From a virus, in IMG/VR virus record IMGVR_UViG_3300032797_000084, positions 1 through 24,829 of that record: a stretch of DNA of 24,829 bases. The stretch is one strand, 5' to 3'. A program made the translations under genes and the position numbers. The notes under the pieces were generated by a model. It was not told where the DNA came from. It made no database searches and was given only the letters and a program-made list of their open reading frames with translations. Shown here piece by piece: positions 1-24,804 of this stretch (its first letter is position 1; each line of letters opens with the position of its first letter).

Positions 1-33
1 TGACTGGAGTTCAGACGTGTGCTCTTCCGATCT
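1..33. other. Illumina TruSeq adapter left on contig end
   Basis: Bases 1-33 match the Illumina TruSeq read-2 adapter, ending in GCTCTTCCGATCT. Read on the minus strand in the capsid frame, it gives the artefactual tail DRKSTRLNSS. This is not phage sequence. The true insert starts at about base 34, and the gene running into this edge is cut off by the assembly, not by biology. Confidence 0.97.
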
Positions 34-1241
34 TTATTGCTTTCAAGCAAAATTCTCTGCATCAAAGCAACGTGTCTATCAAGATAGTTGTAATTGGTAG
101 CTGCACCCTGGTCGAAATAGTGAGTAACCTGAGCTCCAAGAATTACGAGGTCAGAGAGAATTTCCCTGTCCACTTCAAGTGCTATTTCCTGACTCATTAA
201 CGCAGTCAGTTCGGCCTCAATATCTATGCCGTGATAGCTCTTAAAGTCCTGAGCTGATTCAGGGGTCCACACCGTTTTCAATTTACGGGTCTTTGCTTCA
301 ACCGTGTCTTTGTCGATAGTGATCTTCAGTTCTGATATGTCGGCATTGGCTTCAAGGTTGTACACGAACTCCATAACCGCTGTCCTGCTAACCTTATCGG
401 TCGCGCAAGTAGAAGTCATATTGATTGTGGCAACTCTTGTTGCTGGGTTGTATGCTACTGAGTTTACTGTCAAGGACGAAGCTGCACCACTCTCGATTGT
501 GAGAGCTGCGCCGGTCCACAGGTAAACCGTAACTGTTCTATTGAAGTCTGCTAGTGCTGTATTACCTTCCAGAATCCTTACCCTGAACGGTGTTGATGCT
601 GAGGGGGCTGAAGTCTGAAGCGGTAATGCTCTGTCTGTCGTTCCAGTTACGCCATCACCAACGTTAGTTGGGCCAGCTGAGTAGTAATCAGCAGCCGCAG
701 CGTCCGCTACCACACCGGCTTCTCTATTGCCAGCTGCGGTAACTATCATATGGTTATTGACGATCTGTTTTGCGTAGTATGGGTTGACCGGGAAGTTCCT
801 ATACGGTTCAGCTGCATTGTAAGGAGTCGTTCCGGTTAGACCAGCTGTCTGCAACAGGTTAAGCTGCGTTCCAGCTGCGGCCGTACCACGAGTCTGCTCG
901 AATTTATACCTCAGATAGAAGATAAATCCGACAGGCTGCATAAGGGGCTGAACACCTACGAGCTTGTTAGCTATAAGGTTCGGGAACACCCTGCGTATGA
1001 TCGGTAATGCGTACTTTATGAACTGACCAGCGGTGCCGATTGAGCTGCCAGAAGTTGTGCTTTCTGTCAACAGCCTATCTGCGAACTGGACTTCGTTCTC
1101 CATAAGTATAGCAGTTGCTACCTTGCTATAATCATCATTGATACCTTCAAGAAGCGGTTTGTATTTTTCGACATATTTCTTGCCTTCGACCATAAGTCTT
1201 TCGGCATTCTGCTTAATGAAATCTTTATACGTATCGGACAT
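34..1241 (-). CDS. 23: Major capsid protein, T4 gp23 family (C-terminus missing)
   Basis: Forms the hexameric capsid lattice. About 402 codons are present; T4 gp23 has 521, so roughly the last quarter is missing because the contig ends in adapter. The translation shows two stretches easily aligned with T4 gp23: RRVFPNLIANKLVGVQP (about residues 83-99; T4 has RRAIPNLIAFDICGVQP), and a later segment with EAKTRKLK, AQDFKSYHGID and EVDREI matching T4 EAKSRQLK, AQDLRAVHGMD and EINREV. The sequence DRLLTESTTSG places a prohead-protease site (LTE) after Glu60, equivalent to T4 FLTE at residue 65. The start ATG is preceded by AGGAGG nine bases upstream, overlapping the TAG stop of the scaffold gene. 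It is therefore co-transcribed with scaffold. Confidence 0.96.
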
Positions 1242-1254
1242 TTCTCAAATCCTC

Positions 1255-1968
1255 CTATTGGACCTTGCTATTATGATATGCTAAGCGAACTATTTCGCCT
1301 AAGAATCCATCTACTGTCTCTTTTTTATCCTCACCGGTAGGTAGAATCTTACCGATTTTTGATTCGTTCACTTGCTCTTTGAGAGGTGTCTTCGATACCT
1401 TCTCTAACTCAGCAACTTTGGTCTTCAATGTCGCATTTTCGTCTGTAAGTGTTTTAATAGATTTGTCTTTCAGTGCGATGCTTTCGTTGAGTTTTTTGAT
1501 TTCGGTTTCGTCTTTTATGATTTTGGTTTCTACTTTAGTTTCTACTTTGGCTTCAGAAATAGGCTTTACGTTTGCTTTCGTTTCTTTTTCAACTTGTTCT
1601 TTTACCAAGTTCTCAATCTCTTTCCACTTCGATTCCACAAAAAGTTTGGTCTTCTGTGAGAGTTCGGCTTTGTGAGCTTTGTAATCTTCCTCGATTAGCT
1701 TTTTAACGCCTGTTCGAGCTTCCTCAAAACGTTTCTTGAAGTCTTCCTTCGCTTCGTAGAGAGCCTTGTGGGATTTGGCGGCTTTGTCTTTTAAATCAGC
1801 AACCTTTACCCTAATTAACTCAACAGCCTCGTTCTCTTCTTTCTCACGAGCTTCGTTGAGTGTCTTAAGGTGAGCTTCCATAGCTTCCATTACACCCTCG
1901 GCAATCTGCTTAGCAGCGGAGTCTTCAATCTTCGCATCTTTAAGGATACCCAATAATTTTTCTTTCAT
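1255..1968 (-). CDS. 22: Capsid scaffold / prohead core protein, gp22-like
   Basis: A 237-residue, Lys/Glu-rich, almost entirely helical coiled-coil protein directly upstream of the major capsid gene and downstream of the protease, exactly the position of gp22 in T4. It should assemble the internal core on which the prohead shell forms and then be degraded by the protease. No sequence motif proves this; the assignment rests on composition (long heptad-like runs over residues 30-130 and 155-200) and gene order. The start ATG has a strong GGAGGG site eight bases upstream. The gene follows a terminator and a candidate promoter, so scaffold and capsid may be a separately boosted high-level unit. 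Confidence 0.85.
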   Translation of the reverse strand: MKEKLLGILKDAKIEDSAAKQIAEGVMEAMEAHLKTLNEAREKEENEAVELIRVKVADLKDKAAKSHKALYEAKEDFKKRFEEARTGVKKLIEEDYKAHKAELSQKTKLFVESKWKEIENLVKEQVEKETKANVKPISEAKVETKVETKIIKDETEIKKLNESIALKDKSIKTLTDENATLKTKVAELEKVSKTPLKEQVNESKIGKILPTGEDKKETVDGFLGEIVRLAYHNSKVQ

Positions 1969-2137: not shown

Positions 2138-2743
2138 TTATTTCTTATTTCGTAGAAACTCGTCGACTATTTTGAATACTTCGTGCTTGAAATTAGCTGG
2201 TTTTGTGTCGTGACTAAATATGCGTTTTAACGTACTTTCTGATAATTGTAGGTATGCTCCGGGTGTTGACGGCTCAGCCACTACGTCCCACGTAATCAGC
2301 TGAAAATCGTCATTGACCACCTGGATCTCGTTTCCACTTTCGTCCATTTCTTTGCGAGTTGTCCCCAAGCCTCGGCTTGAGATTCCTATTTTAACGTTTG
2401 CGTCGACGAGTGATTCTACGATTTTTCCACAAGGTGTATTAAGTAGTTCAAGTTCTCCGTATATGTCGCTTTCGTTGCATTGAACTCCGGTTATAAGATG
2501 GCTTGCTTTTGCATATTCGATTGTAGCTGTCTGTGGATGGTCTAGTTGCCCTACCAGGGAACGGTTCTTTACAGCTTCTGCAAGCTTGGTGCATTCCCTA
2601 GCAAGAACCTCTTTGTTGTAAACTCTTCCGTTCTCGTTCTTTACGTTTGCTTTCTGAAATAGACCACGAAGCTTCTTTGGCTGGTTCTGTTCCTTTATGA
2701 CCTTATATTCAAAAATTACCTGCTCTAAGAGTAAATTGTTCAT
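2138..2743 (-). CDS. 21: Prohead core protease, T4 gp21 family
   Basis: Serine protease of the T4 gp21/herpesvirus-assemblin type. It cleaves scaffold, capsid and internal proteins after Glu in (L/I)-x-E sites during head maturation. The 201-residue product has the family layout: a strand-rich core starting KKLRGLFQKANVKN (24-37), the catalytic His in VGQLDHP (His69) and the catalytic Ser in GISSRGLG (Ser122/123). Length fits gp21 (212 in T4). Its N-terminus has LLE (residue 7) and IFE (residue 12), possible self-cleavage sites. The start overlaps the stop of the preceding gene by ATGA. It sits upstream of scaffold and capsid, as in T4. Confidence 0.94.
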   Translation of the reverse strand: MNNLLLEQVIFEYKVIKEQNQPKKLRGLFQKANVKNENGRVYNKEVLARECTKLAEAVKNRSLVGQLDHPQTATIEYAKASHLITGVQCNESDIYGELELLNTPCGKIVESLVDANVKIGISSRGLGTTRKEMDESGNEIQVVNDDFQLITWDVVAEPSTPGAYLQLSESTLKRIFSHDTKPANFKHEVFKIVDEFLRNKK

Positions 2744-3420
2744 ATCTTTTCTTCCTCATCCGCTTCGTCTGCGTATACTTCAAAAAATCTCTCCCAGTAT
2801 TCCGGGGAGGACATTTCTTTCTCTAATGACTTCTTGCTCTTTTCTACACGTTTCGCAATCTTGTATATATCTCTTATCCTGTTCTCTATCTGTCTTGTTG
2901 TCTGTTTAACCTGCTTTATTGCCGGTCTAATCTCTCCCGGATTAAGGTTTAGGTTAACGTAATCGTTCTCTATGTACTCTAAATCCTCAATACCGCTTAT
3001 CGGATCCAACTTCAGCAGAAGCCATCCGCCGGACCTTCCTTCTTGGAAGTAGTCCAGAACGAACGGAAAATCCTCTTTTATCCACTCTATAAAGAACTCT
3101 AACTGCTGTGGCAACTCCTCCCAAAAGTAATGGTCAAGTTGCTCGGTAACTCCAAGTTTCTCTGCCTTATCAAGAACTTCTTGCGGTATGTCTACACGGC
3201 CCATCTTTATATTGAACTCTACCGTATTCTTGCTATCCCGCGCGTGTCCGGCAGAAAACTCTTCTTCAAATATATAATTATACTGCTCTACTGCTTCCTT
3301 AGATAAGTCCAGAGCCCTCTTTAACTCTATGGCTTCTGGTGTCTTATAATACTCCGCTGTCCTGGTCTCCAAATCCTTAGTAGAGGCCGGTTTGAATATA
3401 TCATCCTGTATCTGCAACAC
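2740..3420 (-). CDS. Unknown protein with N-terminal DIFKPA motif
   Basis: A 226-residue, strongly acidic and helical protein that I do not recognise. The N-terminus reads QDDIFKPASTKDL followed by R-x-AEY. Nearly the same start occurs in the gene at 17153-17902, with 18 identical bases in the DNA. The remainder has Trp/Phe-rich segments (YFWEELPQQLEFFIEWI, about 123-139) and a lysine-rich helix near 185-205. It lies between the 1360-residue protein and the protease, where T4 keeps its small prohead-core genes 67 and 68, so a head-core role is possible but unproven. The stop overlaps the protease start by four bases, indicating translational coupling. Confidence 0.85.
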   Translation of the reverse strand: MLQIQDDIFKPASTKDLETRTAEYYKTPEAIELKRALDLSKEAVEQYNYIFEEEFSAGHARDSKNTVEFNIKMGRVDIPQEVLDKAEKLGVTEQLDHYFWEELPQQLEFFIEWIKEDFPFVLDYFQEGRSGGWLLLKLDPISGIEDLEYIENDYVNLNLNPGEIRPAIKQVKQTTRQIENRIRDIYKIAKRVEKSKKSLEKEMSSPEYWERFFEVYADEADEEEKI

Positions 3421-7518: not shown

Positions 7519-9432
7519 CTACGTGATTAATTTCTCCTCTTTACCTTTGTTATTACCGTTCTCGATAAGACCTTTAAATTGTCCTTCGTATAATAGGTAA
7601 TCAAAGTGACTGCTACTCATAATATATTTAGTGATATGCTTTTTACGAAGTTTGCTTTCTCTCATTTCTTCCGGCCTTTCGGCAGGTTCCTCTTCTTCGC
7701 CTTCCTCAGGAGGAACTTCCTCTCCCGGCTTCGGCTCTTCTCCCGGCTTCGGTTCCTCACCTGGTTTAGCTTCCTCGCCTTCTTTACCCTTAGCGAATGA
7801 TGCGAACTCACCTTCTATTCCGCCAGTAGGGGCTCCCCCGCCGCCACCACCAGGAGCTTCTTCCGGAGCGCCGGCAGCTGGCATCTCTTGCATCCTCTGC
7901 TCTCTCATTTCTGCTATCTCATCCTCTTCCATACGAAGTATATTCTTTAATACATATTCGTCTGAAAGTAATTGCTGGCCGTCGATACTATTGATACCTT
8001 TCGCAACGTTCAACGCATTCAACCTAGCGTTAATAAGCTCAAGCTTCGTAAGTTCATCTATATTTGAAGGTATGGTCATAGTTACCTTTAATGACTTTAT
8101 ATCCTCGGCAGAATAACCTTTCAGATACAGCTGTATATAAGCAATTTTGTATAGCTGGGATACGATAGCCTTCTGTATCCTCATAATAGTCCTACCAAAA
8201 CGTTTATCCAATACAGATAGACCTGCTTTGGTCATATCTACGTTTGGAGAACCGTCCGGTGTTCCGGTAAGCCTACCAAGATAGGCAGGCGGTATCTTTA
8301 AGGAAGCCATAATCTTATCCCTAAAGAAGTTGATATCTGCTATCTGGTCAAGGCCAGTAGTCCACCCCGGAAGTGTTTCTATCCTTGTACCACGTTGTCC
8401 AGTTGTGCTTTCCCTTGTAGGTATATAGAAGTCCTCTTGCTGTGCGAGAGGTGATGCCATTTGGTCTATTTCACCCGATACTGGGTTGTAGAACTGCCTT
8501 TTTGCGTAGTCCTGCTTAATCTGGTTGATGAAGGTCTTAACTTCGGCAGGACCCATATTGCCTACGTCTATATAGAACACCCTGCGTTCAGGAGCCCTCG
8601 TTAATCGGTTAATAATGAGTGATTCTTCCATTATCTTAAGCTGTTTCCACGTCTTCCTAGCACCTTCAAGGATAGATAGTCCATATGGGGATAGCCTTGG
8701 GTCATTGGTCTTTAACGTAAAATGGCAGACCTGATAAGGCTCATATTCTATCTTTTGTAGGGTCTGCGGAACTCCTTGTGCGTCTAGGTTAGCTGTAGCA
8801 TCGGTAAGGGATTCTTGTAATCTAAATTCAAATCTTTTAAGTGTCCTATCTTCCTCAATACGATAGAAACCATCCAGAGGTATCGGTATGAGCTTTGCTA
8901 TACCGTCCTCTGATTCGTTCATAACTATTTCAAATGGAGAATCACCGAACTTGATTAGATCTCTGGATAATCCCCATACCTGGTCTTCTAACTGGAGGGT
9001 TTCGTCGAAAAGGTCTCTTATTTCCTCTGTAACCTTATCGTTTTCAGACTCTATCTTTATGGTCTTACCTTCTTCTATGCTCATAGAACAACATTCGTCG
9101 GCATATACGTCCAAAGAACCAGAAATCATAGCGTCTTGGTCCATAAGGTTGTATTCCTCATAGCGCCTACGCCTGTCTATGGACATCTTGGCTATGTTCT
9201 TTTCATACCAAGCCCACGCCCAACCTAACTGTGAGTAATACCAAAGAGAGTCTTTGGTAGCAACTTTCAGGTTAGAATCAAGGGAATCCTGTGTCTGGAT
9301 CTCCTGCCTTTTGAAGTAGTTCTTTATCTTGGTAAAGACAGTTTGTTTCTTGAAGAACTTCTCTTCTTGAGGCTTCTGAATCTTATCCACGAAATCCGCA
9401 TTATCTTTAAAAATCAAGTCTTCTGTAGCCAT
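7519..9432 (-). CDS. 20: Portal vertex protein, T4 gp20 family
   Basis: Forms the dodecameric ring through which DNA enters the head. The 637-residue product has recognisable gp20 features: RRRRYEEYNLMDQDAMISGSL (about 87-107, split here for length only), SRDLIKFGDSPFEI, RAPERRVFYIDVGNM (near 278-292), the ED-x-YIPTRE and ETLPG segments, and DKIMASLKIPPAYLG. T4 gp20 has 524 residues; the excess is a low-complexity tail with a Gly run near 530 and KPGEEP repeats near 550-585, followed by a basic terminal helix. GGGAGGA lies 13 bases upstream of the ATG, at the end of the preceding gene. It lies downstream of terminase with one gene between. Confidence 0.95.
   Translation of the reverse strand: MATEDLIFKDNADFVDKIQKPQEEKFFKKQTVFTKIKNYFKRQEIQTQDSLDSNLKVATKDSLWYYSQLGWAWAWYEKNIAKMSIDRRRRYEEYNLMDQDAMISGSLDVYADECCSMSIEEGKTIKIESENDKVTEEIRDLFDETLQLEDQVWGLSRDLIKFGDSPFEIVMNESEDGIAKLIPIPLDGFYRIEEDRTLKRFEFRLQESLTDATANLDAQGVPQTLQKIEYEPYQVCHFTLKTNDPRLSPYGLSILEGARKTWKQLKIMEESLIINRLTRAPERRVFYIDVGNMGPAEVKTFINQIKQDYAKRQFYNPVSGEIDQMASPLAQQEDFYIPTRESTTGQRGTRIETLPGWTTGLDQIADINFFRDKIMASLKIPPAYLGRLTGTPDGSPNVDMTKAGLSVLDKRFGRTIMRIQKAIVSQLYKIAYIQLYLKGYSAEDIKSLKVTMTIPSNIDELTKLELINARLNALNVAKGINSIDGQQLLSDEYVLKNILRMEEDEIAEMREQRMQEMPAAGAPEEAPGGGGGGAPTGGIEGEFASFAKGKEGEEAKPGEEPKPGEEPKPGEEVPPEEGEEEEPAERPEEMRESKLRKKHITKYIMSSSHFDYLLYEGQFKGLIENGNNKGKEEKLIT
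7625..7632 (-). promoter_or_regulatory. ACTAAATA element inside the portal 3' end
   Basis: The octamer lies in the portal reading frame (codons for ITKYIM) and four bases before an in-frame ATG at 7618-7620, which would give a 33-residue C-terminal fragment. It is about 120 bases upstream of the 1360-residue gene start and could drive that gene. Function is inferred only from recurrence of the motif. Confidence 0.35.
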
Positions 9433-9434
9433 TT

Positions 9435-10070
9435 TTATACCGGTCCTCCCCCAGGTTTTTTAGCATTATGCTCATTCCACCACTTTGATATATTCTCTAA
9501 CGCGCCAGAAAATCCGCCATCGTCATCCCATATCATCTTTATAATAGCATTACCTTGGTCCGGCGTGAGAGTATGACGATGCACTATCTCATCCACCTTA
9601 GCCATTAATATTTGACACTTATCTCTATCATTCTTATTCCTATACTTAGGGCTTGTTCCTATATCTATCGCATTTAGCATAATCTCTTTAATAGCATTGG
9701 ATGCCTTTATAGGATCCACATTAGATTCCGGAGGACAAGCCTCAATTGCGATTGCCGCTACTTTATCCCCCACGTTCATTTCTTTGAGGTCTGGTGGGAG
9801 AAGATTTGCCTTTAGCATATTTACTTTCGGTTGTATGTTCTTGGCATTATGTACCAGCTTATTATAATTTGTTCCCACGGTCCTAAGAAGGTCGTCTTTA
9901 GAAACTTTCTTATACTTATTGAAACGTGAGTCGATATCCCATAATGGCATTATCTTACTAACAACGTGCGACATCATAGTACTCGCAATAGGTTCGGTAG
10001 GAACCGTAGCCAACGGAGTAGTCTGTTCAAATATCTTGTCTATCTTATATAGAGTCTCATTCAGGGTCAT
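9435..10070 (-). CDS. Unknown protein between terminase and portal, with candidate capsid-targeting N-terminus
   Basis: A 211-residue protein (213 if the first of two close ATGs, at 10076, is used). I do not recognise it. I prefer the second ATG because it puts ACTAAATA seven bases upstream, close to the eight bases seen at 23049 and 21609. The N-terminus, TLYKIDKIFE, matches the signature of those two genes and ends in I-F-E, a legal T4-type protease site. The body is mixed helical, with HRHTLTPDQGNAIIKMIWDDDGG near 180-200 (quoted in part: TPDQGNAI, IWDDDGG), and ends in KKPGGGPV. Gene position between terminase and portal suggests a packaging, head or neck role; in T4 the genes at this place are tail sheath and tube, which it does not resemble. 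Confidence 0.82.
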   Translation of the reverse strand: MTLNETLYKIDKIFEQTTPLATVPTEPIASTMMSHVVSKIMPLWDIDSRFNKYKKVSKDDLLRTVGTNYNKLVHNAKNIQPKVNMLKANLLPPDLKEMNVGDKVAAIAIEACPPESNVDPIKASNAIKEIMLNAIDIGTSPKYRNKNDRDKCQILMAKVDEIVHRHTLTPDQGNAIIKMIWDDDGGFSGALENISKWWNEHNAKKPGGGPV

Positions 10071-10077
10071 ATACATA

Positions 10078-10085
10078 TATTTAGT
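10078..10085 (-). promoter_or_regulatory. ACTAAATA element upstream of the 211-residue gene
   Basis: The octamer is one base before the first and seven bases before the second in-frame ATG of the gene at 9435. It lies at the very end of the terminase gene's downstream gap. It is a candidate promoter or translation-linked signal. Confidence 0.45.
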
Positions 10086-10086
10086 A

Positions 10087-11820
10087 TTATCCTAGGAGCC
10101 ACCTTATATCCTCTGTGGTTTCTACTCCCTCTTGATGTTTAACCTTAACAGTATAGGGATCCTCTTTCAAAGCCCATCGAATAATGTCATATTCATTGAA
10201 CCCCTTTAATGGTTGCAACTTAATTTTAGGAACGGCATACACACCTAAGTTTTGGAAGCTTATGAAAGCTGTATTCTTGTCGGCAGAATTACCGGTTATA
10301 ACTCCACGTAGTCCCTTTTGTAACACCCCAAAGTCCTCTTTAAGCTCTACAAACTGGTTAACGTCTAACAGCGATTCCTCACGCAGTTTACCATATAGAC
10401 TTGCCATAGCTGGATTAGTCATAACGGCAGATTGAATTCCTAAGAACGTCAATCCCAATGATATAAGCAAGTCGTCGGTAGACCCTTTCTGCTTGGATAT
10501 CTTACCAGTTTCTACGTCTGCCACGAAGGTCTGGAGCTCGTTTATAGTCCTTATGCTGAACACCTTTAACAGTTCTTTTGTGAATATCTGCTCTATTGCT
10601 TGTATGATAAAAGGACGAGTCCTTACAGTGGTATCCCACCCCGGAGATCCTGTCCTTCTGAAGTAGACGTTGGGATACCTTTGGTTAAGGTATAACTCAT
10701 TCATTACTGCTAGCCCCATATTGTTTATCTCTAATACTATAAATGCTCCACCGTATTCCTTACCGACATCGTGAAGATATTTAGCGTAGGTTATGGTATC
10801 TACTTTTCCACAATATTCGGCTACCTGCATCCCAGTTGCGACGTTAATTACGTGAAATGCAGAATTAGACTTTCCACTTCCTTCTTTCCCAGCATCGGCA
10901 CCGATGACATAGAAAGTCTCCGGATCCGGCTTCTCCCATATCCACAACTGTCCTTGATATCGTTGCTCTATAGGATCTTTCGTAAGCTTGTGTTCCCCAT
11001 TTCCCTCTATGTCAAGATACCTATTGATAATTTCTCTTGGGATAAAGGTATTGGTGCCTCCTAAGAAGTCACCTAATACTTCTTGTGCGAACTTTAGCTC
11101 TCCTAAGTCCTTTCTCTGCGCTTCGGCCCAGCCGGGTAGGCAATATTCAGGGTGTTCTGTGTATACAAGGTCAACTGGATTAAAATTGTTCTTTTTAAGC
11201 TTAGCTTCGTTCCACTTATCATAGAACCATTGGCCGGTTCCGAAGGTTCCGTTTACCGTCGAGAGAACTATGCCGTTACCGCCTGTGGATAGGATAGGAA
11301 ATGCGGAAGTCCATAGGGATTCTATGTTCTGTATGAAAGCCGCTTCGTCTATGACAAGCAAGGAGGCCGCAAAAGACCTGGCTGCGTATCTCGGTGATGG
11401 TATAGATTGTATCCTTGAATCGTTGTCAAACACCATAGTAGACTTATTATCCTGTTCAAGTTTTCCTCCTAACCATTGAGGTAGTTTATCGTGTGCTGTC
11501 TTTATGTGTTTTAAAAATTCCTTTGATTCTCTGGCTCCTATTGAGATAATCATTATCTCTTTAGCTCTATTGAACATAGCCATCCATAAGACATATACCG
11601 ATACAAGCGTAGATAATCCCATCTGCCTGGGTTTCTTTATGATATTGAACCTGTGGTTTTGGAAATCATTGAATATTCGTTCTTGGTAGTTGTATAGGTC
11701 GAACTTGATGAACCCTCGTTTTGGGTGTAGGATAGTAACGTATGTACGGCAGAAATATGCGAAACTCTGCCGACACTTCTTTAATTCTTCGTTTATAAAT
11801 GCATCTGTTGGGCGAGCCAT
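10087..11820 (-). CDS. 17: Terminase large subunit, T4 gp17-like
   Basis: ATP-driven DNA-packaging motor and headful nuclease. In 577 residues the ATPase has Walker A KPRQMGLST (63-71), Walker B LLVIDEA (154-160) and coupling motif LSTVNGT (186-192). The RNase H-like nuclease has its three acidic residues in IGADAG (Asp309), VLEINN (Glu364) and STDDLL (Asp449/450). Length is close to T4 gp17 (610). No splicing or frameshift is seen. The start is weakly served by AGGT about seven bases upstream, 14 bases after the preceding stop. No small terminase subunit can be named with confidence; the helical 170-residue protein at 15186 is one possibility. Confidence 0.96.
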   Translation of the reverse strand: MARPTDAFINEELKKCRQSFAYFCRTYVTILHPKRGFIKFDLYNYQERIFNDFQNHRFNIIKKPRQMGLSTLVSVYVLWMAMFNRAKEIMIISIGARESKEFLKHIKTAHDKLPQWLGGKLEQDNKSTMVFDNDSRIQSIPSPRYAARSFAASLLVIDEAAFIQNIESLWTSAFPILSTGGNGIVLSTVNGTFGTGQWFYDKWNEAKLKKNNFNPVDLVYTEHPEYCLPGWAEAQRKDLGELKFAQEVLGDFLGGTNTFIPREIINRYLDIEGNGEHKLTKDPIEQRYQGQLWIWEKPDPETFYVIGADAGKEGSGKSNSAFHVINVATGMQVAEYCGKVDTITYAKYLHDVGKEYGGAFIVLEINNMGLAVMNELYLNQRYPNVYFRRTGSPGWDTTVRTRPFIIQAIEQIFTKELLKVFSIRTINELQTFVADVETGKISKQKGSTDDLLISLGLTFLGIQSAVMTNPAMASLYGKLREESLLDVNQFVELKEDFGVLQKGLRGVITGNSADKNTAFISFQNLGVYAVPKIKLQPLKGFNEYDIIRWALKEDPYTVKVKHQEGVETTEDIRWLLG

Positions 11821-11836
11821 TTAATACCTGACTTTC

Positions 11837-13315
11837 TTACGGAATACCAAGTGTGCTTTTTACTCTAGCAAAATCTTTCTCATCTATACGAGCGTCGTGG
11901 GCATCATATAGTTCTTTCTCACCGTTGGGATATACAGCAACAGCAATCTTGTCAAACTTATCGTTGTGCATCTCTATAAGAGGTATAATATAGTAGAGAT
12001 TAACACCTCTACCAAAGTAATAGCTGTTGAAGTAGTTCCTGGACCCCATAGCGGCGGTACACCATCTACTTCCACGACCATACTTACAACTTGATTCAAC
12101 GTCCGGAGGACGAACCACTATGACGTTCTCATTTTGGAATATAACGTCCTTCGGGTTTATATCTTTCAAGAAGTCTTTCATAGCATTTATCTTACCTGCT
12201 ATCTGGTTCTTCTTGGTCATTAAAGCTTCTCTCTTTTCTGGATCCCTTTCCTTACTTATTTTAGCAGTAATGGCTGCTAAGTCTTTGTAAAGGCCGCTCT
12301 TTGTCTGGGCCTCCCCCGACTTCTCGGCATACTTTATCTCTGCCTGCCTAACAGCATCGTCTACCTGCTCTATATTCTCATATCTGCCTATATCCTTGAC
12401 CTCTATCTGGTTCTTGTTGCACAAATCGTCGAATCTAGATATGACATCATACTTCGTAAGAGAAGGCATCTTTGGGAACGTCCTAGCCATCCACTCTATA
12501 TACTTCTTTTGAGGTGTGGGGTCTTTCTGAACAAGCACGTTAAACGCCCTTTTGTTTATCTTACCGGTGTCCAAATAGAGCTCTTTTGCCCTAGATAACC
12601 CCTCCCTATATAGCCTATCCAAAGATTCCCTAATATAACCTAATCTGGGGGCTCCAGAGGTAGCTCCGGGTAGTGCCTGCCTATCAAGGATACTCATAAC
12701 ACCCTTTATCATCTCGTCAACATCGGCATTGCCATACTTCTTTATGAACTCTTGGGCTTCTGTTTCAGGTAGTCCATATTTCAACGTTAAAACCTTGAAT
12801 ATAACCCTGTTCAGCTTCTCTTTAGCTTCTGGGCTCTCACTGTTGCGTATAATCTCGTCAGCGGTTGCTGATGGAACACCAAATGCTCCTAAAACCTGCA
12901 TTAAGGCATCCCTATTCTTTTGGTAATGCTTTGGTAGGACTTCGGGGGTAAAAACTTTCTCTTTTGGGGCTAAGGCAGTTTGTCTTTTCGGAGGATGCGC
13001 TCCCCATATGCTAGTAGATTTATCAAAGGGAGTGTCCTCGTCCATTTCCTCAAACTCACCACCTTTTATGACTTCACCACATTTTGGACACTTCCATTCA
13101 GAGGTTTCTTCCTCTCCTTCGTGTCCCCAACCGCGTGTGGCATCTGCGTAGTAATCTACTTCCGACTTACACTTCGGACAAAGTAATTTAATGCTAGTTT
13201 CTTCCTGCATCTTATAGGGAAAAGCCAACGAATACGATTCTTTTATGATATCGTCTAAGCTGGTCTGTTTTTCCTTACCAAACTCTAGTGAATTCAGGAA
13301 GTCACTTATATTCAT
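11837..13315 (-). CDS. Zinc-ribbon protein with C-terminal RWCTA motif, unknown function
   Basis: A 492-residue protein. Near the N-terminus a zinc ribbon is formed by CPKC (46-49) and CPKCG (76-80). The middle is helical with many charged residues. The C-terminal 90 residues hold a compact motif, CKYGRGSRWCTAA (about 405-418), then a Tyr-rich stretch (FNSYYFGRGVNLYYIIP) and a strand ending DAHDARIDEKDF. The RWCTA/lyyi arrangement looks familiar from other phage proteins, but I know no established activity for it. The start overlaps the previous stop by ATGA, so it is translationally coupled to the Cys-rich 181-residue gene. It precedes terminase directly. Confidence 0.88.
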   Translation of the reverse strand: MNISDFLNSLEFGKEKQTSLDDIIKESYSLAFPYKMQEETSIKLLCPKCKSEVDYYADATRGWGHEGEEETSEWKCPKCGEVIKGGEFEEMDEDTPFDKSTSIWGAHPPKRQTALAPKEKVFTPEVLPKHYQKNRDALMQVLGAFGVPSATADEIIRNSESPEAKEKLNRVIFKVLTLKYGLPETEAQEFIKKYGNADVDEMIKGVMSILDRQALPGATSGAPRLGYIRESLDRLYREGLSRAKELYLDTGKINKRAFNVLVQKDPTPQKKYIEWMARTFPKMPSLTKYDVISRFDDLCNKNQIEVKDIGRYENIEQVDDAVRQAEIKYAEKSGEAQTKSGLYKDLAAITAKISKERDPEKREALMTKKNQIAGKINAMKDFLKDINPKDVIFQNENVIVVRPPDVESSCKYGRGSRWCTAAMGSRNYFNSYYFGRGVNLYYIIPLIEMHNDKFDKIAVAVYPNGEKELYDAHDARIDEKDFARVKSTLGIP

Positions 13316-13857
13316 TTACGTCTTTCTCTCCCAAAATTTTCTGCCGGAACGTTTGAATCCTTAAAAGTGGGATGGACACTACCTTCTTTTTCTAATCCAG
13401 GAAGTCCTTTTCCAGTAGACTGTTTTCTATCCTCGCGTCCTCTTTCAAATTCGGCTTGTGTCGTACCTTTCCTAGGGTCTTCCTGGAACCCCTGTGCTTT
13501 CTTTATAGGTTTTGCCCCAACCTTGAAATTACAGCTAATCCTTCCACCTGCGATACCACCAAAGAACGTGCAAGACTTACCGGAACAGATGCAACAAGGA
13601 GTTGAATAGCTAGGGTCAAGCGGTATCTTATATTCCTTAGCAACTTCTATCGCGAAGCTTTTAGGAACTTTAACACCATCTCCGGCTTCCCCGTGTATCT
13701 TTGATTTAAGTGTTTTCCAGAAAGGACACTGTGCTTCACCTTTCAGTTCAGGGTAGATAGAATCAACCTTACCTTTTTGGTCTATTGTTGTTTTCGCTAG
13801 GTCAAAGTCCCACGGTGCTACCCAAGCGTGTTCTGTTAAAAGTTTTTGTATTTTCAT
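13312..13857 (-). CDS. Unknown cysteine-rich protein with MKIQKLLTE start
   Basis: A 181-residue basic protein, not recognised. Six cysteines (44, 88, 89, 91, 96, 109), with CCICSGKSC in the middle, suggest metal binding. The N-terminus, MKIQKLLTE, resembles in length and in its L-T-E end the capsid-targeting peptides of T4 internal proteins, and the LLTE matches the capsid cleavage site of this phage (LLTE at Glu60 of the major capsid protein). Both ends overlap neighbours by four bases (ATGA), a sign of a tightly coupled set of genes. The C-terminal third is rich in Arg, Lys, Glu and Gly and probably disordered. Confidence 0.83.
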   Translation of the reverse strand: MKIQKLLTEHAWVAPWDFDLAKTTIDQKGKVDSIYPELKGEAQCPFWKTLKSKIHGEAGDGVKVPKSFAIEVAKEYKIPLDPSYSTPCCICSGKSCTFFGGIAGGRISCNFKVGAKPIKKAQGFQEDPRKGTTQAEFERGREDRKQSTGKGLPGLEKEGSVHPTFKDSNVPAENFGRERRK

Positions 13858-17152: not shown

Positions 17153-17902
17153 TTAATTTGTTCCATATGCTATCGCACCGGACGGTAGTTCAGTCGCCTC
17201 TCCGTCGTATCTATCTAAAAAGTGAGCTACTCCGTCAGCGTCTATCGCTGCCTGTGCCGCTGAATCTGTATCAATCTGAACAAAGTTAGCTTTTATTAAA
17301 TCCTGGACACTATAAGCTCCAAGTTCTTTAACGAAGTATTGAATAGGATCTTCCAGCCGTTCGTAGATGTCGTCATAATACTTCTCTTGTAGCTGCTCTT
17401 TTGCATCGTCTAAAATCCGTTCCATCTCTGCTACGTTATCTACTTCCTCGGCCTCATCGTAATCCTGCTCGTTACCGGTAAGCTCGAGAATTTCTCTCTC
17501 GTCCATACCTTCCATTCTTGCATCCGCTTCTTCACCTGCTATAATCCTTCTATCTGTATCACCAATAGTGAGAAACTGGGTAATGAAACTCTCGTTAAAA
17601 TCCTCCGGACGTGCATCTAAATCGTCCTTAACTTGGTCTATTGCCGCTATTTCGGCAGCTTCCTCATTAGCAAAAACTATCCATTCTGTTTCTCCGGAAC
17701 GCCCCTTGGTATAGGATTCCATAGACACACCGTTGGTATACATACCAGTTTCGGTAATGTCTATATCAACGCCTTCGTGTTCTTGAAGCTCCCTGCGAGC
17801 TGTTTCTACCCAAGCCCCTTTGGACCGCGCAAACTCGGCCTTACGCTTCTGTATATCGGCTTTACCGGCCGGTTTGAATATATCGTCATTTAAAGGTGTC
17901 AT
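17153..17902 (-). CDS. Unknown acidic protein with N-terminal DIFKPA motif
   Basis: A 249-residue, very acidic product (many Glu/Asp/Ala), not recognised. It begins NDDIFKPAGKADI followed by R-x-AEF, nearly the same as the protein at 2740-3420. The rest does not obviously align with that protein, so only the N-terminal segment is shared, as expected for a targeting or docking peptide. It overlaps the 378-residue gene by 17 bases. The body includes WVETARRELQEHEGVDIDI and a C-terminal FLDRYDGEATELPSG segment. Confidence 0.82.
   Translation of the reverse strand: MTPLNDDIFKPAGKADIQKRKAEFARSKGAWVETARRELQEHEGVDIDITETGMYTNGVSMESYTKGRSGETEWIVFANEEAAEIAAIDQVKDDLDARPEDFNESFITQFLTIGDTDRRIIAGEEADARMEGMDEREILELTGNEQDYDEAEEVDNVAEMERILDDAKEQLQEKYYDDIYERLEDPIQYFVKELGAYSVQDLIKANFVQIDTDSAAQAAIDADGVAHFLDRYDGEATELPSGAIAYGTN
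17867..17884. repeat. 18-bp exact repeat coding DIFKPA (second copy at 3385-3402)
   Basis: GGCCGGTTTGAATATATC occurs here and at 3385-3402, in both cases coding the DIFKPA peptide near a start codon on the minus strand. Identity at third codon positions suggests duplication or recombination rather than protein-level selection alone. Confidence 0.85.
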
Positions 17903-21252: not shown

Positions 21253-21609
21253 TTATTTAGTTTTATGGACTAAAGCTGCTCCAAAATCTCCGCTCGAATC
21301 AAGCAAATTATACAGTTCAGTATAGTTGTCCGGAGTATAGGTCTTTCCCTTGTAGTTAACTTGTGGAAAGTGGGTAAGCAAAGTGAATAAAGCCATATTA
21401 ATATTCCTTGACCGAACCTTTCCGATATACTCCTTCGTTGCTACTGGAAACCATATCTCAAATGTGTTTTTTGGTCTTGTAATTTCCTGATTAGTAGGTT
21501 TCTTAACCTGATGGACGGCCTTATCCTTAGAGAAATCCTTCCACATAGATTCTATATCGTCCATCTGTCGCTCAAAAAGACAATTAACCTTCTGAATCAG
21601 CTTTTCCAT
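21253..21609 (-). CDS. Unknown 118-residue protein with MEKLIQKVNCLFE start
   Basis: Small protein, not recognised. The first 13 residues align without gaps to those of the adjacent CCA enzyme (M, L4, hydrophobic 8, D/N 9, L11, F12, E13 shared), although the rest is unrelated. Residues 45-118 look like one small folded domain (NTFEIWFPVATKEYIGKVRS; MALFTLLTHFPQVNYKGKTY). No Shine-Dalgarno sequence is visible upstream; instead ACTAAATA ends eight bases before the ATG. The N-terminal peptide ends in L-F-E, which fits cleavage by the prohead protease, so a virion-internal protein is a reasonable guess. Confidence 0.82.
   Translation of the reverse strand: MEKLIQKVNCLFERQMDDIESMWKDFSKDKAVHQVKKPTNQEITRPKNTFEIWFPVATKEYIGKVRSRNINMALFTLLTHFPQVNYKGKTYTPDNYTELYNLLDSSGDFGAALVHKTK
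21254..21261 (-). promoter_or_regulatory. ACTAAATA element upstream of the membrane protein gene
   Basis: The octamer overlaps the last codons and stop of the 118-residue gene (ACT AAA TAA) and lies 18 bases before the ATG at 21236, which also has an AGAGGA ribosome site. Confidence 0.4.
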
Positions 21610-21617
21610 ACACTTAG

Positions 21618-21625
21618 TATTTAGT
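21618..21625 (-). promoter_or_regulatory. ACTAAATA element upstream of the 118-residue gene
   Basis: The octamer starts at the stop codon of the CCA enzyme gene and ends eight bases before the ATG at 21609. No Shine-Dalgarno sequence is present between them. If it is a -10 type promoter, the mRNA would start close to or at the start codon. Confidence 0.5.
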
Positions 21626-23049
21626 TAAGGGAGGCTCTTTATATATTCCTTTATTTTCTCTATATCTTCTACATTTATATTGTTATTGATTATCCAATCC
21701 ACCGTAGCCTTTATATACTTCCCAACAGCAGGGCCTTCCGGTATTCCCTTTAACTGCATAACGAGCCTGCCGTTGACTATTTTCTTAATGTTATCTACGG
21801 CCTGCTTACCACTGAACTTCTTTTTAATCTGTTCTACTTTATCCTCAATCTGTCGCCATTCGTCCGGGTCGAATAGGTGCTTTCTGGCAGCGGTATCTGC
21901 GTAGGCAGTCTGTTTTAGGACTTCCCATTTATCGTGGTTAATAAGGTCAAGTATCTTCTTGTCCGACATATCTAAAAAGTCGTGGATCTTCATATGATGC
22001 AGACAGGCAAAGATAAGGGAATCCCTAGTTTCGTTGTCCATTTTGAGCCTTTCTGCTATCTGCTCTATGATATGGACACCTTTCTCTGCGTGGTCTATAT
22101 AGGTCATCTTCTCCCCCTCTTTCTTGAAGGAGGCGGGTTTTCCTATGTCGTGTAAAAGAATAGCAAGGTTGATTATTGGGTTTGCTATCTTGTTTTGATG
22201 CAGGGCAGCTATAACGTGGTCATATACAGTTCTACCTTCTGGGTGCTTGTCCGGACTATGCTCAAACCTCTCCATCTCAATAACTTCTGGTATTATGTAT
22301 TGGAGTAGACCTGTATCTTTAAGGACTTGGAGAGCTCCTGCAAACTTTGGTCCCTCCTGCTCGGCCATCTTAACGATTTCTTTCATTATGCGTTCAGGAG
22401 CTATTTTGGTTATCTTTGGTGCGTGGGTCTTTAAGGCGGAATAAGTATCCGGGTGAATATCATATCCCATTCTTGAGCTGAAACGAACCGCACGTAGCAT
22501 ACGCAGGTAATCTTCTAAAAATCTCTTATTTGGATCCCCTACCGTGCGTAATACCTTGTTCTGTATATCTCTAACACCGTCAAAATAGTCGTATATATTA
22601 CCTTCACTATCTATACCCATTGCGTTGATGGTGAAGTCCCTACGTGCTACGTCTTGCTTGAAGCTGACTCCAACTTTAACTGTTTCCGGCCTTCGTCCGT
22701 CAAGATACTCTCCGTCTGCTCTGAACTGAGCAACTTCAAAGGTGTATTGCTTATACTCAACACCGATAATTCCAAAACTCTTACCTTCCCCAACTGAGAA
22801 CGTATCAAACATCTTCTCTATCTGTTCTATTGGAACGTCGGTGGCAATATCAATATCGTCCGGTTCTTTCTCACCGGTAATGAGATCCCTTACAGCTCCA
22901 CCTACGATATATGCCTTTCCAACCTCGTCCAGCTTGTTCAATACTTCGACAGCGGCCTGAAGCATTGGCATAGATTTAACATACCTATACCAATCCTCTT
23001 TGGTAATAGATTCAAATAACATATCTATCCTTTTGGATAATCTATTCAT
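21625..23049 (-). CDS. cca: tRNA nucleotidyltransferase (CCA-adding enzyme) with HD domain
   Basis: Adds or repairs the 3' CCA end of tRNA from CTP and ATP. The 474-residue product is a bacterial class II enzyme: GGAVRD (50-55), metal-binding D-I-D (65-67), ARRDFTINAMG (135-145), DYFDGVRDI (154-162), and the nucleotide-recognition region with EDYLRMLRAVRF (179-190). An HD phosphohydrolase domain follows (HDIGKP, 300-305; DHAEKGVHI, 319-327). Related bacterial poly(A) polymerases share the core, but the context of a tRNA array favours CCA. There is an N-terminal extension of some 25 residues, starting MNRLSKRIDMLFE, which is not part of the enzyme fold and resembles that of the next gene. First gene of the leftward operon, divergent from the tRNA operon; no Shine-Dalgarno, ACTAAATA eight bases upstream. 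Confidence 0.94.
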   Translation of the reverse strand: MNRLSKRIDMLFESITKEDWYRYVKSMPMLQAAVEVLNKLDEVGKAYIVGGAVRDLITGEKEPDDIDIATDVPIEQIEKMFDTFSVGEGKSFGIIGVEYKQYTFEVAQFRADGEYLDGRRPETVKVGVSFKQDVARRDFTINAMGIDSEGNIYDYFDGVRDIQNKVLRTVGDPNKRFLEDYLRMLRAVRFSSRMGYDIHPDTYSALKTHAPKITKIAPERIMKEIVKMAEQEGPKFAGALQVLKDTGLLQYIIPEVIEMERFEHSPDKHPEGRTVYDHVIAALHQNKIANPIINLAILLHDIGKPASFKKEGEKMTYIDHAEKGVHIIEQIAERLKMDNETRDSLIFACLHHMKIHDFLDMSDKKILDLINHDKWEVLKQTAYADTAARKHLFDPDEWRQIEDKVEQIKKKFSGKQAVDNIKKIVNGRLVMQLKGIPEGPAVGKYIKATVDWIINNNINVEDIEKIKEYIKSLP

Positions 23050-23057
23050 ACTACTTA

Positions 23058-23065
23058 TATTTAGT
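23058..23065 (-). promoter_or_regulatory. ACTAAATA element upstream of the CCA enzyme gene
   Basis: Ends eight bases before the ATG at 23049, the same spacing as for the 118-residue gene. It lies in true intergenic DNA, which makes this the cleanest promoter candidate of the series. Confidence 0.5.
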
Positions 23066-23566: not shown

Positions 23567-23640
23567 GGGGCTGTGGTGTAGTGGTAGCACATCAGGTTTT
23601 CAGCCTGGAGGTATGGGATCGTTCCCCTTCAGCCCTACCA
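23567..23640 (+). tRNA. tRNA-Glu(TTC)
   Basis: Acceptor GGGGCTG pairs with CAGCCCT (G1-U72 wobble), D stem GTGT/GCAC, anticodon stem TCAGG/CCTGG with loop TTTTCAG giving TTC. The T arm is slightly irregular (one mismatch, loop ATCGTTC). CCA is encoded. Confidence 0.9.
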
Positions 23641-23641
23641 A

Positions 23642-23717
23642 AGCCCCTTCGTCTAACTGAAGAGGATATCTGGTTCTCAGCCAGATGATGCGAGTTTAAT
23701 TCTCGTAGGGGCTACCA
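23642..23717 (+). tRNA. tRNA-Glu(CTC)
   Basis: Perfect acceptor AGCCCCT/AGGGGCT, anticodon stem TCTGG/CCAGA with loop TTCTCAG giving CTC, T stem CGAG/CTCG. CCA encoded. It follows tRNA-Glu(TTC) by one base, so the phage covers both Glu codons. Confidence 0.92.
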
Positions 23718-23720
23718 ATA

Positions 23721-23731
23721 TTGTTCTTTGA
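23721..23731 (+). promoter_or_regulatory. boxA-like element before tRNA-Asp
   Basis: TTGTTCTTTGA, repeated exactly at 24401-24411, in both cases four bases before a tRNA. It resembles the ribosomal-operon antitermination boxA (TGCTCTTTAACA in E. coli, TGTTCTTTGA-type in Bacillus). Confidence 0.5.
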
Positions 23732-23735
23732 TTAA

Positions 23736-23814
23736 GGTTCGTTAGCATAGCCCAGCCGAATGCGCTGGATTGTCAATCCAGAGATCACGGGAGCGAAGCC
23801 CGTACGGACCGCCA
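23736..23814 (+). tRNA. tRNA-Asp(GTC)
   Basis: Acceptor GGTTCGT/ACGGACC, anticodon stem CTGGA/TCCAG with loop TTGTCAA giving GTC, T stem CGGG/CCCG, discriminator G and encoded CCA. Two bases separate it from the RNase P RNA. Confidence 0.95.
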
Positions 23815-23816
23815 GA

Positions 23817-24143
23817 TTTAGTGGACAGGTAATCGATGTTTACTTTAGTGAACAAATGTTTACTTTAGTTTACATAGGAAACTCCGGACTCCATAGAGCA
23901 GTGTAGTAAGGCTAATAACCTTACCCACGTTTACGTGAGGATTAGAGCAACAGAGACGAGCCTTATAGACCGTGCCCTACAGCTATGCTAGCAATAGACG
24001 GGAAGACGATATAAGGAGTGAAACGGGCAATCTCTACACGGAGCAATCCCACATAGGATACTGGCTGGCTCGGTCAATAGTATCGGGTAGGGAGCTTAGA
24101 TAGATGATTACCAAATACAGAATCCGGGTTATAGTTCACTAAA
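23817..24143 (+). ncRNA. rnpB: RNase P RNA, compact bacterial type, phage-encoded
   Basis: Catalytic RNA that cuts the 5' leader from pre-tRNA. Conserved blocks seen: GGAAACTCCGGACTCC (23877-23892), GCAACAGAGAC (23947-23957), ACGGAGCAATCCCACATAGG (24038-24057) and ACAGAATCCGGGTTAT (24117-24132), each lined up with E. coli M1 RNA. Helices: P1 TTTAGTGGAC (23817-23826) with GTTCACTAAA (24134-24143); P2 GGTAATC (23828-23834) with GATTACC (24106-24112); P3 ATGT...ACAT (23836-23875); P4 23880-23888 with 24123-24130, keeping the bulged U; P6 GAGC (23896-23899) with GCTC (24068-24071); P8 GTAAGG/CCTTAC; P9 CACG/CGTG; P11 CCTTATA (23961-23967) with TATAAGG (24010-24016); P15 GATACT/AGTATC (24057-24084). 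P13, P14 and P18 seem absent, giving about 327 nt against 377 in E. coli. No protein subunit gene is in the window; the host protein may be used. Confidence 0.95.
23836..23875 (+). repeat. Direct repeat forming P3 of the RNase P RNA
   Basis: The 14-mer ATGTTTACTTTAGT occurs twice within 40 bases, ending in TTTACAT. The outer ATGT/ACAT ends can pair, and GTTTAC-TTTA-GTGAAC makes an inner hairpin, so P3 appears to have been built or altered by a short duplication. Confidence 0.7.
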
Positions 24144-24145
24144 AA

Positions 24146-24234
24146 GGAAGGTAGGCAGATATGGTTGGCTGCGCTGGTTTGCTAAACCAGTTAGGGTAAA
24201 ACCTATGTGAGTTCAAATCTCGCACCTTCCGCCA
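24146..24234 (+). tRNA. tRNA-Ser(GCT)
   Basis: Perfect acceptor GGAAGGT/ACCTTCC, anticodon stem CTGGT/ACCAG with loop TTGCTAA giving GCT, long class II variable arm as expected for Ser, discriminator G, CCA encoded. It begins two bases after the RNase P RNA. Confidence 0.95.
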
Positions 24235-24235
24235 A

Positions 24236-24306
24236 TCCCCGGTAGTTTAAGGGAAAACGTCAGACGTATTCTGAAGACGTGAGTTTAAACCTCACCTGGG
24301 GAACCA
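24236..24306 (+). tRNA. Atypical tRNA, GTA (Tyr)-like anticodon loop
   Basis: Acceptor TCCCCGG/CTGGGGA, D stem GTTT/AAAC, T stem GTGAG/CTCAC and CCA are all good, but the anticodon arm is two bases short: stem TCAGA/TCTGA with a five-base loop CGTAT, or four pairs with loop ACGTATT. The central triplet is GTA (Tyr), but U33 is missing and the T loop reads TTTAAAC rather than TTCRA. It could be a variant, a damaged copy or a mis-assembled base. A CTG (Gln) reading needs a stem that invades the T stem. Confidence 0.7.
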
Positions 24307-24312
24307 TTTTAA

Positions 24313-24398
24313 GGAAGGTCTGGGCATTGGCGAGCCCCACTGTCTTGAAAACAGTAGCTGTAACAGGCTTAGTCGTTCAACTCGACTACCTTCCGCCA
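24313..24398 (+). tRNA. tRNA-Ser(TGA)
   Basis: Acceptor GGAAGGT/ACCTTCC, identical to the other Ser tRNA. Anticodon stem ACTGT/ACAGT with loop CTTGAAA giving TGA, long variable arm, discriminator G, CCA encoded. Confidence 0.95.
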
Positions 24399-24400
24399 TT

Positions 24401-24411
24401 TTGTTCTTTGA
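24401..24411 (+). promoter_or_regulatory. boxA-like element before tRNA-Trp
   Basis: Second exact copy of TTGTTCTTTGA, with the same four-base distance to the next tRNA as at 23721. Confidence 0.5.
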
Positions 24412-24415
24412 ATAT

Positions 24416-24490
24416 AGGGGTGAAGTGTTAGCGACAGCACAGCGGTCTCCAAAACCGCAGGTAGGAGTTTGAGCCTCCTCACCCCTGCCA
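24416..24490 (+). tRNA. tRNA-Trp(CCA)
   Basis: Perfect acceptor AGGGGTG/CACCCCT, anticodon stem GCGGT/ACCGC with loop CTCCAAA giving CCA, T stem AGGAG/CTCCT, discriminator G, 3' CCA encoded. Confidence 0.95.
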
Positions 24491-24561
24491 CGCAGACGGT
24501 CTGGCGACCACGTTGGTTTCATAAGCCAATTAGCAGGATTCGATTTCCTGGTCTGCGACCA
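24491..24561 (+). tRNA. tRNA with CAT anticodon (Met elongator or Ile2)
   Basis: Perfect acceptor CGCAGAC/GTCTGCG, anticodon stem TTGGT/GCCAA with loop TTCATAA giving CAT, T stem CAGGA/TCCTG, CCA encoded. The D arm is unusually compact (GGTC/GACC with a tiny loop, leaving no room for normal positions 8-9). It starts directly at the end of tRNA-Trp. Whether it reads AUG or, after lysidine modification, AUA cannot be told from the DNA. Confidence 0.85.
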
Positions 24562-24568
24562 AATTTAA

Positions 24569-24644
24569 CGCGGGTGGGAAGGGCCGGAGCTCTCGTTTGG
24601 CTCATAACCAAATAAACTACGTTCAACTCGTAGGCCCGCTACCA
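24569..24644 (+). tRNA. Initiator-like tRNA-fMet(CAT)
   Basis: Starts CGCGGGT and ends GCCCGCTACCA, so base 1 (C) and base 72 (T) do not pair, the mark of bacterial initiators (C1 and A72 unpaired in E. coli). The anticodon loop CTCATAA is identical to E. coli fMet, and an A11-U24 pair fits the best D-stem alignment. The stem has G30-C40 and G31-C39, but T29-A41 replaces the first of the three usual G-C pairs. CCA encoded. Confidence 0.85.
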
Positions 24645-24645
24645 A

Positions 24646-24720
24646 GACCGTGTGGCTGATCAGATAGGCGGGAGCCTGCAGAGCTCTCCTATGGAGGTGC
24701 AAATCCTCTCACGGTCTCCA
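24646..24720 (+). tRNA. tRNA-Cys(GCA)
   Basis: Perfect acceptor GACCGTG/CACGGTC, anticodon stem GGAGC/GCTCT with loop CTGCAGA giving GCA, T stem GGAGG-type with CCTCT, discriminator T as usual for Cys (U73), CCA encoded. Confidence 0.93.
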
Positions 24721-24728
24721 AAAGTTTT

Positions 24729-24804
24729 GCTTGTGTAGCTCAATTAGCAGAGCATCTGGCTTTTAACCAGAAGGTTGTGAGTGCAATTCTCGCCACAGGC
24801 ACCA
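24729..24804 (+). tRNA. tRNA-Lys(TTT)
   Basis: Acceptor GCTTGTG/CACAGGC (one G-U), D arm GCTC/GAGC, anticodon stem TCTGG/CCAGA with loop CTTTTAA giving TTT, T stem GTGAG/CTCGC, discriminator A, CCA encoded. Confidence 0.95.

Follow-up and report, generated by a model that had tools for sequence, protein, structure and literature searches.

The window, the whole stretch of DNA that we analysed (24,829 nucleotides), is a 24.8-kb fragment from a T4-like phage. Its minus strand, on which the window's features lie unless a plus strand is given, carries an almost gapless run of genes headed by that of a CCA-adding enzyme (class II tRNA nucleotidyltransferase, 474 residues with an N-terminal extension; 21625..23049; assigned from Pfam, PDB homology, and an AlphaFold model). 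There follow a 118-residue protein of no assigned function, the second gene in the run (ORF at 21253..21609), the large terminase (10087..11820; PF03237, 5e-07), a 211-residue protein that starts at the second ATG of a 213-residue ORF (9435..10070), the portal protein of the T4 gp20 family (7519..9432; PF07230, 5.5e-77), a very large protein, the prohead protease (S77 family, T4 gp21 type; 2138..2743; PF03420, 7.6e-22), a probable scaffold protein, and the major capsid protein. The scaffold candidate (1255..1968) is proposed from its gp22 position between the protease and capsid genes; a Pfam search with it gave nothing above cut-off. These head genes are co-directional, and from the CCA gene down to the protease no gap exceeds 16 bases. 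A divergent cluster of at least ten tRNA genes and an RNase P RNA lies on the plus strand (23567..24804), and all ten tRNAs encode their 3' CCA.

The major capsid protein (gp23 type; 3..1241) was assigned by homology and position, together with an N-terminal alignment to T4 gp23. Its propeptide region, DRLLTE/STTSGSSIG (the slash marks the predicted cut), aligns with T4 gp23 near FLTE65 and resembles the T4 gp24 site LLRE/STTTNSNSIG, and the sequence-only reading was right to place a Glu60 in LLTE here (predicted maturation site, 1062..1073, from alignment to T4 gp23 and gp24). The LLxE/ST site is kept in the window, in two near relatives, G001 (IMG/VR 3300032046_000144) and G006 (IMG/VR 3300035701_000175), and in L005 and L008. 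By Pfam and alignment, the window encodes both a gp21-type (S77) protease and a capsid protein of the cleavable type. At the 3' end of the capsid gene and in positions 1-30 of the window, the translations TGVQTCALPI and DRKSTRLNSS are found, which look to us like sequencing-adapter sequence; the last residues of the capsid ORF are presumably an assembly artefact. Elsewhere in the window, the last ~105 residues of a 492-residue protein (11837-13315) recur with 40-42% identity in the large portal-to-protease protein, in G001 (26029-26334) and G006, a sign of domain shuffling.

By its motifs and fold, the CCA enzyme is of the class II CCA-adding type, and CCA-adding activity is predicted. Pfam detects PF01743 (3.5e-32), PF12627 (2.8e-13), and an HD domain (2.9e-5), and the catalytic motifs GG..RD, DxD, RRDxTxN, and EDxxRxxR are all present. 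Residues G50, G51, R54, D55, D65, D67, R136, R137, D138, T140, N142, E179, D180, R183, and R186 are invariant in the 49 phage sequences aligned. The AlphaFold model (pLDDT 92.6) has its best PDB matches in Foldseek among CCA-adding enzymes (6qy6, 7otr, and 1miv; E down to 8.9e-21). Alignment to the solved enzymes begins at residue 28, and the N-terminal extension is missing from them. In the model, residues 1-10 are disordered or not confidently placed (pLDDT ~42), and residues 2-13 form a helix of low confidence. As the confident fold starts only near residue 17, the predicted cut after Glu13 would leave the enzyme whole.

The extension opens with MNRLSKRIDMLFE (residues 1-13, 23011..23049), which we term the tag and recognise by its similarity to the N-termini of the 118-residue protein (MEKLIQKVNCLFE, 21571..21609) and the 211-residue protein (MTLNETLYKIDKIFE, 10026..10070). 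LFE occupies residues 11-13 of the CCA enzyme and the 118-residue protein, and IFE takes its place in the 211-residue protein. The range first singled out, 21571-23049, spans the CCA gene and the 13 tag codons of the 118-residue gene, and the peptides then quoted from the CCA enzyme, the 118-, 211-, and 181-residue proteins, and the protease are all encoded as reported. Against the CCA tag, two of the 22 other N-termini score above the control level of 16 (the 98% level of internal windows), those of the 118- and 211-residue proteins, both with a score of 25; 0.05 would be expected (binomial p=0.0012). The protease N-terminus scores 14, under the threshold, and that of the 181-residue protein (ORF at 13312-13857) is absent from the top list of scores. 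These two are weaker but plausible members of the set that the sequence-only reading had drawn up, by conservation: orthologues of the protease keep LFE/IFE-Y-K, with IFE or LFE aligned in the relatives, and the probable tag MKIQKLLTE of the 181-residue protein (13831..13857; conserved, on its own not significant) corresponds to MKIVKLLTE and MKLENLLKE in orthologues. The protease N-terminus, LLLEQVIFE, is possibly self-processed. The clearest sign of selection on the tag, judged from sequence comparison, is the 211-residue protein, whose first 17 residues are identical to those of its G001 orthologue at 14 positions, compared with 25% over the remainder; the peptide is thus conserved though the body is not, and the orthologues in both G001 and G006 have kept the tag on a diverged body. 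The heptamer CTAAATA stands 14-15 bases before the starts of exactly three genes, those with LFE/IFE tags (23058-23064, 21618-21624, and 10078-10084), and resembles the T4 late promoter TATAAATA. We do not press its reading as a promoter motif, since the window has 10 copies where chance predicts 5.8, a mild excess.

In G001, the CCA enzyme (MNKLSKRIDILFE), the 118-residue protein (MEDLIQKVNYLFE), and the 211-residue protein all keep their tags; the counterpart of the 118-residue tag in G006 is MKTDRLIKKINLLFE. About ten further G006 proteins without a recognised family open with the same peptide, and most then have a second motif (for example, MKLEYKINRLFE-DIFQPMSGKE, MKLKSELDRMLE-DIFKPMSSPE, and MEILYKDIDRLLE-DIFAPMSSPE); some units of these proteins are distantly related to one another. 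The window itself encodes a 226-residue protein that starts MLQIQDDIFKPA and has the second motif DIFKP(A/M) (2740..3420) and a 249-residue protein that starts MTPLNDDIFKPA, also with the second motif (17153..17902). An exact DNA scan of viral contigs for EDIF(K/Q)PM gave only chance-like matches outside G006, and we take this form to be specific to that lineage. In G006, the 118-residue protein, a DLFHPM unit, and the CCA enzyme are fused into one protein of 666 residues (L010 1492-3492, minus strand), and ILNE-EAVSDW, a gp21-type site, stands just before the CCA domain, where the window enzyme has its tag.

Our first scans with the CCA enzyme and portal reached only close relatives, and a wider set was assembled from viral contigs by taking phage CCA enzymes ~40-55% identical to that of the window. 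The alignment of orthologues bears out the proposal that the peptide is conserved on phage cca genes for 34 of 49 enzymes. The sequence-only reading had also raised the case of related cca genes that lack the extension and retain a normal start, and this case does occur: the other 15 are of that kind, five of them nested near the window clade, so packaging would characterise many, not all, of these phages. The 34 tagged N-termini resemble unrelated neighbours in the same phage and not anything in cellular CCA enzymes. All but two of them end in (L/I)xE, and the commonest form is M(K/R)(F/L)xxY(L/I)xE followed by Ala, which has the T4 spacing and the Ala after the cut. The T4 spacing itself (hydrophobic at 4, 7, and 8; Glu at 10) is found in 23/34 tagged and 0/15 untagged enzymes, two groups that were assigned from the N-termini themselves, and in 2.5% of internal windows. 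On a tree built without the N-terminus, the tag needs only three changes.

The tag differs between lineages, but at the level of sequence, the CCA enzyme shares its neighbours' tag within a lineage. The genes adjoining CCA in L025 open with MRFLKYLTE, MRFLKYLIE, MKFQKYLTE, and MKFNQYLIE, and the enzyme itself with MRLTTFLINE; L026 has the MRFDDFY family (MRFDEFY and MRFDEYYLTE; CCA, MRFDDFYEFAVYMNE), and L029 the MNKLxTKYxxLLE family (MNKLMTKYVDLLE and MNKLFTKYIDLLE; CCA, MNKLITEKYINLLE). Four adjacent genes of the 735-kb phage LR756501 open with M-I-x-(K/E)-F-(K/R)-(I/L)-(F/Y)-E (the MITKFKLFE family); one encodes a protein of 1233 residues with the CCA domain at its C-terminal end and NMLNE-AI just before the domain. 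In the tagged CCA genes of L026 (9097-9927) and L029 (9079-9918), an ORF resembling a GIY-YIG homing endonuclease breaks the coding sequence at nearly the same point, between the positions of window residues 112 and 118, and no match to a group I intron scored above the Rfam threshold. In L030 (4787-11425, plus strand), the CCA domain is the C-terminal part of a phage protein of 2212 residues.

Among the neighbours of pattern-matching CCA genes, 145/504 are tagged (~29%) compared with 20/1185 internal-Met controls (1.7%); 61/507 neighbours of the other CCA genes, some of which have variant tags, also match the pattern. When 128 tagged neighbours are aligned, the consensus is MRLxxYLxE with almost nothing beyond it; their selection by pattern accounts for the Glu and for hydrophobic residues as a class, but not for the choices of Arg, Leu, and Tyr. 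Most of the tagged neighbours have no known family, and the domains seen in the others are polynucleotide kinase-like, RimK-like, NAD-dependent DNA ligase, NUDIX, and ADP-ribosyltransferase. A few turn out to be baseplate proteins, so some matches to the pattern are false. When N-terminal similarity was tested in G008, the result did not reach significance, and in G012 it was weak; here inspection by eye and the pattern did better than the score used. Wherever a T4-type portal was found among tagged records, S77 was also found (the window, G001 and G006 by homology, G009, G015, G016, and G025); several large tagged contigs gave neither a portal nor an S77 match, and these are perhaps fragments. 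Co-occurrence with S77 was rejected as a discriminator: alone it does not separate tagged from untagged CCA records, and untagged enzymes occur in some genomes with tagged neighbours or with portal and S77. All the tagged phages found are uncultured, and the CCA enzymes of the cultured phages examined (Atu_ph07, phiM12, Vibrio, and Vequintavirinae) are untagged. By these comparisons, the tag is not universal; it is frequent within one broad group of uncultured phages.

Sites of the same type recur inside long proteins. In G006 (17459-31607), DIFxPM returns every ~110-240 residues, and 18/20 copies are directly preceded by (L/I/V/M/F)xE; in G012 (L067, 7165-14025), where the tandem protein has 896 residues, 11/12 copies of W(E/D)DIDSxxLDDEE are preceded by such a step. 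Counting internal copies only and given the Glu, the chance of that many hydrophobic residues is 9e-5 (G006) and 4e-4 (G012), values that overstate independence since the motif copies are related by duplication. LR756501 (L051) has a second motif of its own, DPYGEE, in 19 copies within 50 kb. In ten tandem proteins of G006 and G012, no peptidase domain was found above the Pfam cut-off. The simplest reading of these junctions suggests that the protease that removes the tag may also cut between cargo domains, which would make these proteins cargo polyproteins.

We suggest that this phage uses the N-terminal peptide as T4 uses its capsid-targeting sequence: it would dock proteins into the prohead core, and the S77 prohead protease would then take it off with a cut behind the Glu of (L/I)-x-E. 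Among the cargo would be the CCA enzyme, made late from the head-gene run, packaged, and trimmed to start at Ser14; on entering the cell with the DNA, it would most likely mend tRNA 3' ends as early as the first minutes of an infection. The same kind of peptide is found on the CCA enzyme and on unrelated neighbours, in this phage and in dozens of relatives, and for this reason, we consider it probable that the peptide targets proteins to the capsid, that the prohead protease cleaves it off, and that the CCA enzyme is among the cargo packaged and delivered. The sequence-only reading had arrived at this interpretation, and the alignment of orthologues is mostly in its favour; packaging and injection are what we infer from it.

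The closest parallel is T4, in which IPI, IPII, IPIII, and Alt likewise have, in common between unrelated proteins, a short N-terminal peptide with hydrophobic positions and an (L/I)xE end (IPII and IPIII open with MKTYQEFIAEA, and gp24 with MAKINELLRESTTTNSNSIG). In IPIII, targeting depends on residues 4 and 7 and processing on residues 8 and 10; the site behind which gp21 cuts is L/I-X-E (PMC9026906). The gp21-type protease and gp20-type portal are shared with T4, and many CCA tags keep the T4 spacing and the Ala after the cut. The window tag (KRIDMLFE, KxID-LFE) belongs to another dialect and departs from the exact T4 residue spacing; further differences are a predicted cargo that includes a tRNA-repair enzyme, a much larger tagged set, and, in two relatives, a second motif and tandem cargo domains. 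Also, the T4 internal proteins are packaged, and for the tagged proteins of the window packaging is predicted. In giant phages of the SPN3US/phiKZ type, head-protein propeptides are cut after Glu by a distant gp21 relative, and a virion RNA polymerase is delivered with the DNA; unlike the tags here, several propeptides exceed 100 residues, the phiKZ sites are S/A-x-E, and the text consulted mentions no CCA enzyme among the ejection proteins (PMC5694885). DarB of P1 is directed into the head by an N-terminal signal, its length between 9 and 30 residues, that also works on a reporter (PMC9024508), but this signal lacks the (L/I)xE form and the Dar proteins have no common consensus. The multidomain polyvalent proteins of phages and conjugative elements are believed to enter the particle and to be cleaved into parts (PMC5512222), and the tandem proteins of G006, G012, and LR756501 can be compared with them; polyvalent proteins often have a peptidase domain of their own, where the proteins described here have a prohead-protease-type site at the junctions instead.

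The literature searched gave no report of a tRNA nucleotidyltransferase in a virion, and the nucleotidyltransferase-like gp22 of fHe-Kpn01 is among the gene products remaining once virion-associated ones are excluded. In the isolate Atu_ph07, a gene block at about gp53-gp62 opens with MRWEQLTE/MKWHQLTE and lies inside CDS 31-76, for which 29 virion proteins were counted by mass spectrometry (PMC6102473), a figure for the whole cluster and not for the genes with these openings.

The similarity to solved CCA enzymes that starts at residue 28 and the in-frame ATGs at that point would also fit a true start at Met27 or Met29, with the tag an artefact of annotation. We find this barely credible. Between the window and G001, the changes in codons 2-13 of the CCA gene fall 0, 1, and 5 by codon position, a coding-type pattern that supports the annotated start; coding-type substitutions are present 5' of Met27, the segment after the tag (x-DW-x-Y) is kept across the clade, and in the 60 bases that precede Met1, only one third of the positions match G001 in an ungapped DNA comparison. 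Upstream ribosome-binding motifs (7/30) were of no help in confirming starts, and gene starts in the relatives are ORF calls. Were the peptide genuine, the enzyme might still bind through it to the prohead core only as a partner in structure or as a chaperone, and later be removed or left behind without delivery to the host; the core proteins of T4 are for the most part broken down and expelled (PMC9026906). This seems very unlikely to us: the catalytic residues are invariant across the clade and the fold is intact, as for a working enzyme, and T4 internal proteins with such tags remain in the head and many are ejected (PMC9026906).

A third explanation, which we consider unlikely though less so than the other two, keeps the enzyme out of the head altogether. 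It would belong to a translation kit of tRNAs and RNase P RNA made in the infected cell, and its N-terminal helix would only anchor or regulate it. In both the window and G001, the CCA gene indeed adjoins a tRNA cluster with a full-length bacterial class A RNase P RNA (RF00010; window 23817-24147, plus strand, 147.8 bits; L011 6157-6434 in G001, minus strand, 143.3 bits), which lies inside the cluster; G001 has 24 tRNA genes. To our knowledge, an RNase P RNA of its own is unusual for a phage. The untagged enzymes of cultured phages fit this explanation too. RaK2 gp031, Atu_ph07 gp18, and the Sinorhizobium phiM12 enzyme are of the same family as the window enzyme and have been proposed to mature or repair tRNAs (PMC3622015, PMC7824862); those of Atu_ph07 and phiM12 begin directly at the catalytic head, without a tag. 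Yet the CCA gene of the window points away from the tRNAs and heads the head-gene run, and the CCA ends are already present in all ten tRNA genes there. In the other lineages scanned, a tagged CCA gene has tagged proteins around it but no tRNA gene within 6 kb. A purely local role would also leave the same peptide on unrelated proteins unexplained. In L026, a 264-kb T4-like phage, a tmRNA gene (2258-2617, plus strand; RF00023, 121 bits) lies ~6 kb from the CCA gene.

Because the ten tRNA genes already encode CCA, repair is favoured over biosynthesis as the task of the enzyme. Its role would then be the repair of tRNA 3' ends, of host or phage, which early delivery as capsid cargo would serve; RNA repair has been discussed as a counter-defence in large phages (PMC7824862). 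A broader proposition, to which we give slightly less than an even chance, is that a large group of T4-like phages carry in the head a kit for tRNA and nucleic-acid repair (CCA-adding, polynucleotide kinase-like, and other enzymes) addressed by lineage-specific peptides, and that in some relatives the cargo is made as polyproteins, which the prohead protease would cut at (L/I)xE into single domains while the head matures. If the CCA enzyme is packaged, some phages would guard the tRNA pool, or restore it, ahead of all expression of their own genes, at the stage when tRNA-damaging host defences could otherwise win. The T4 targeting peptide would, if this is true, pass from a special case to a general address label, and whoever read it in a metagenomic genome would have a list of the proteins injected by that phage.
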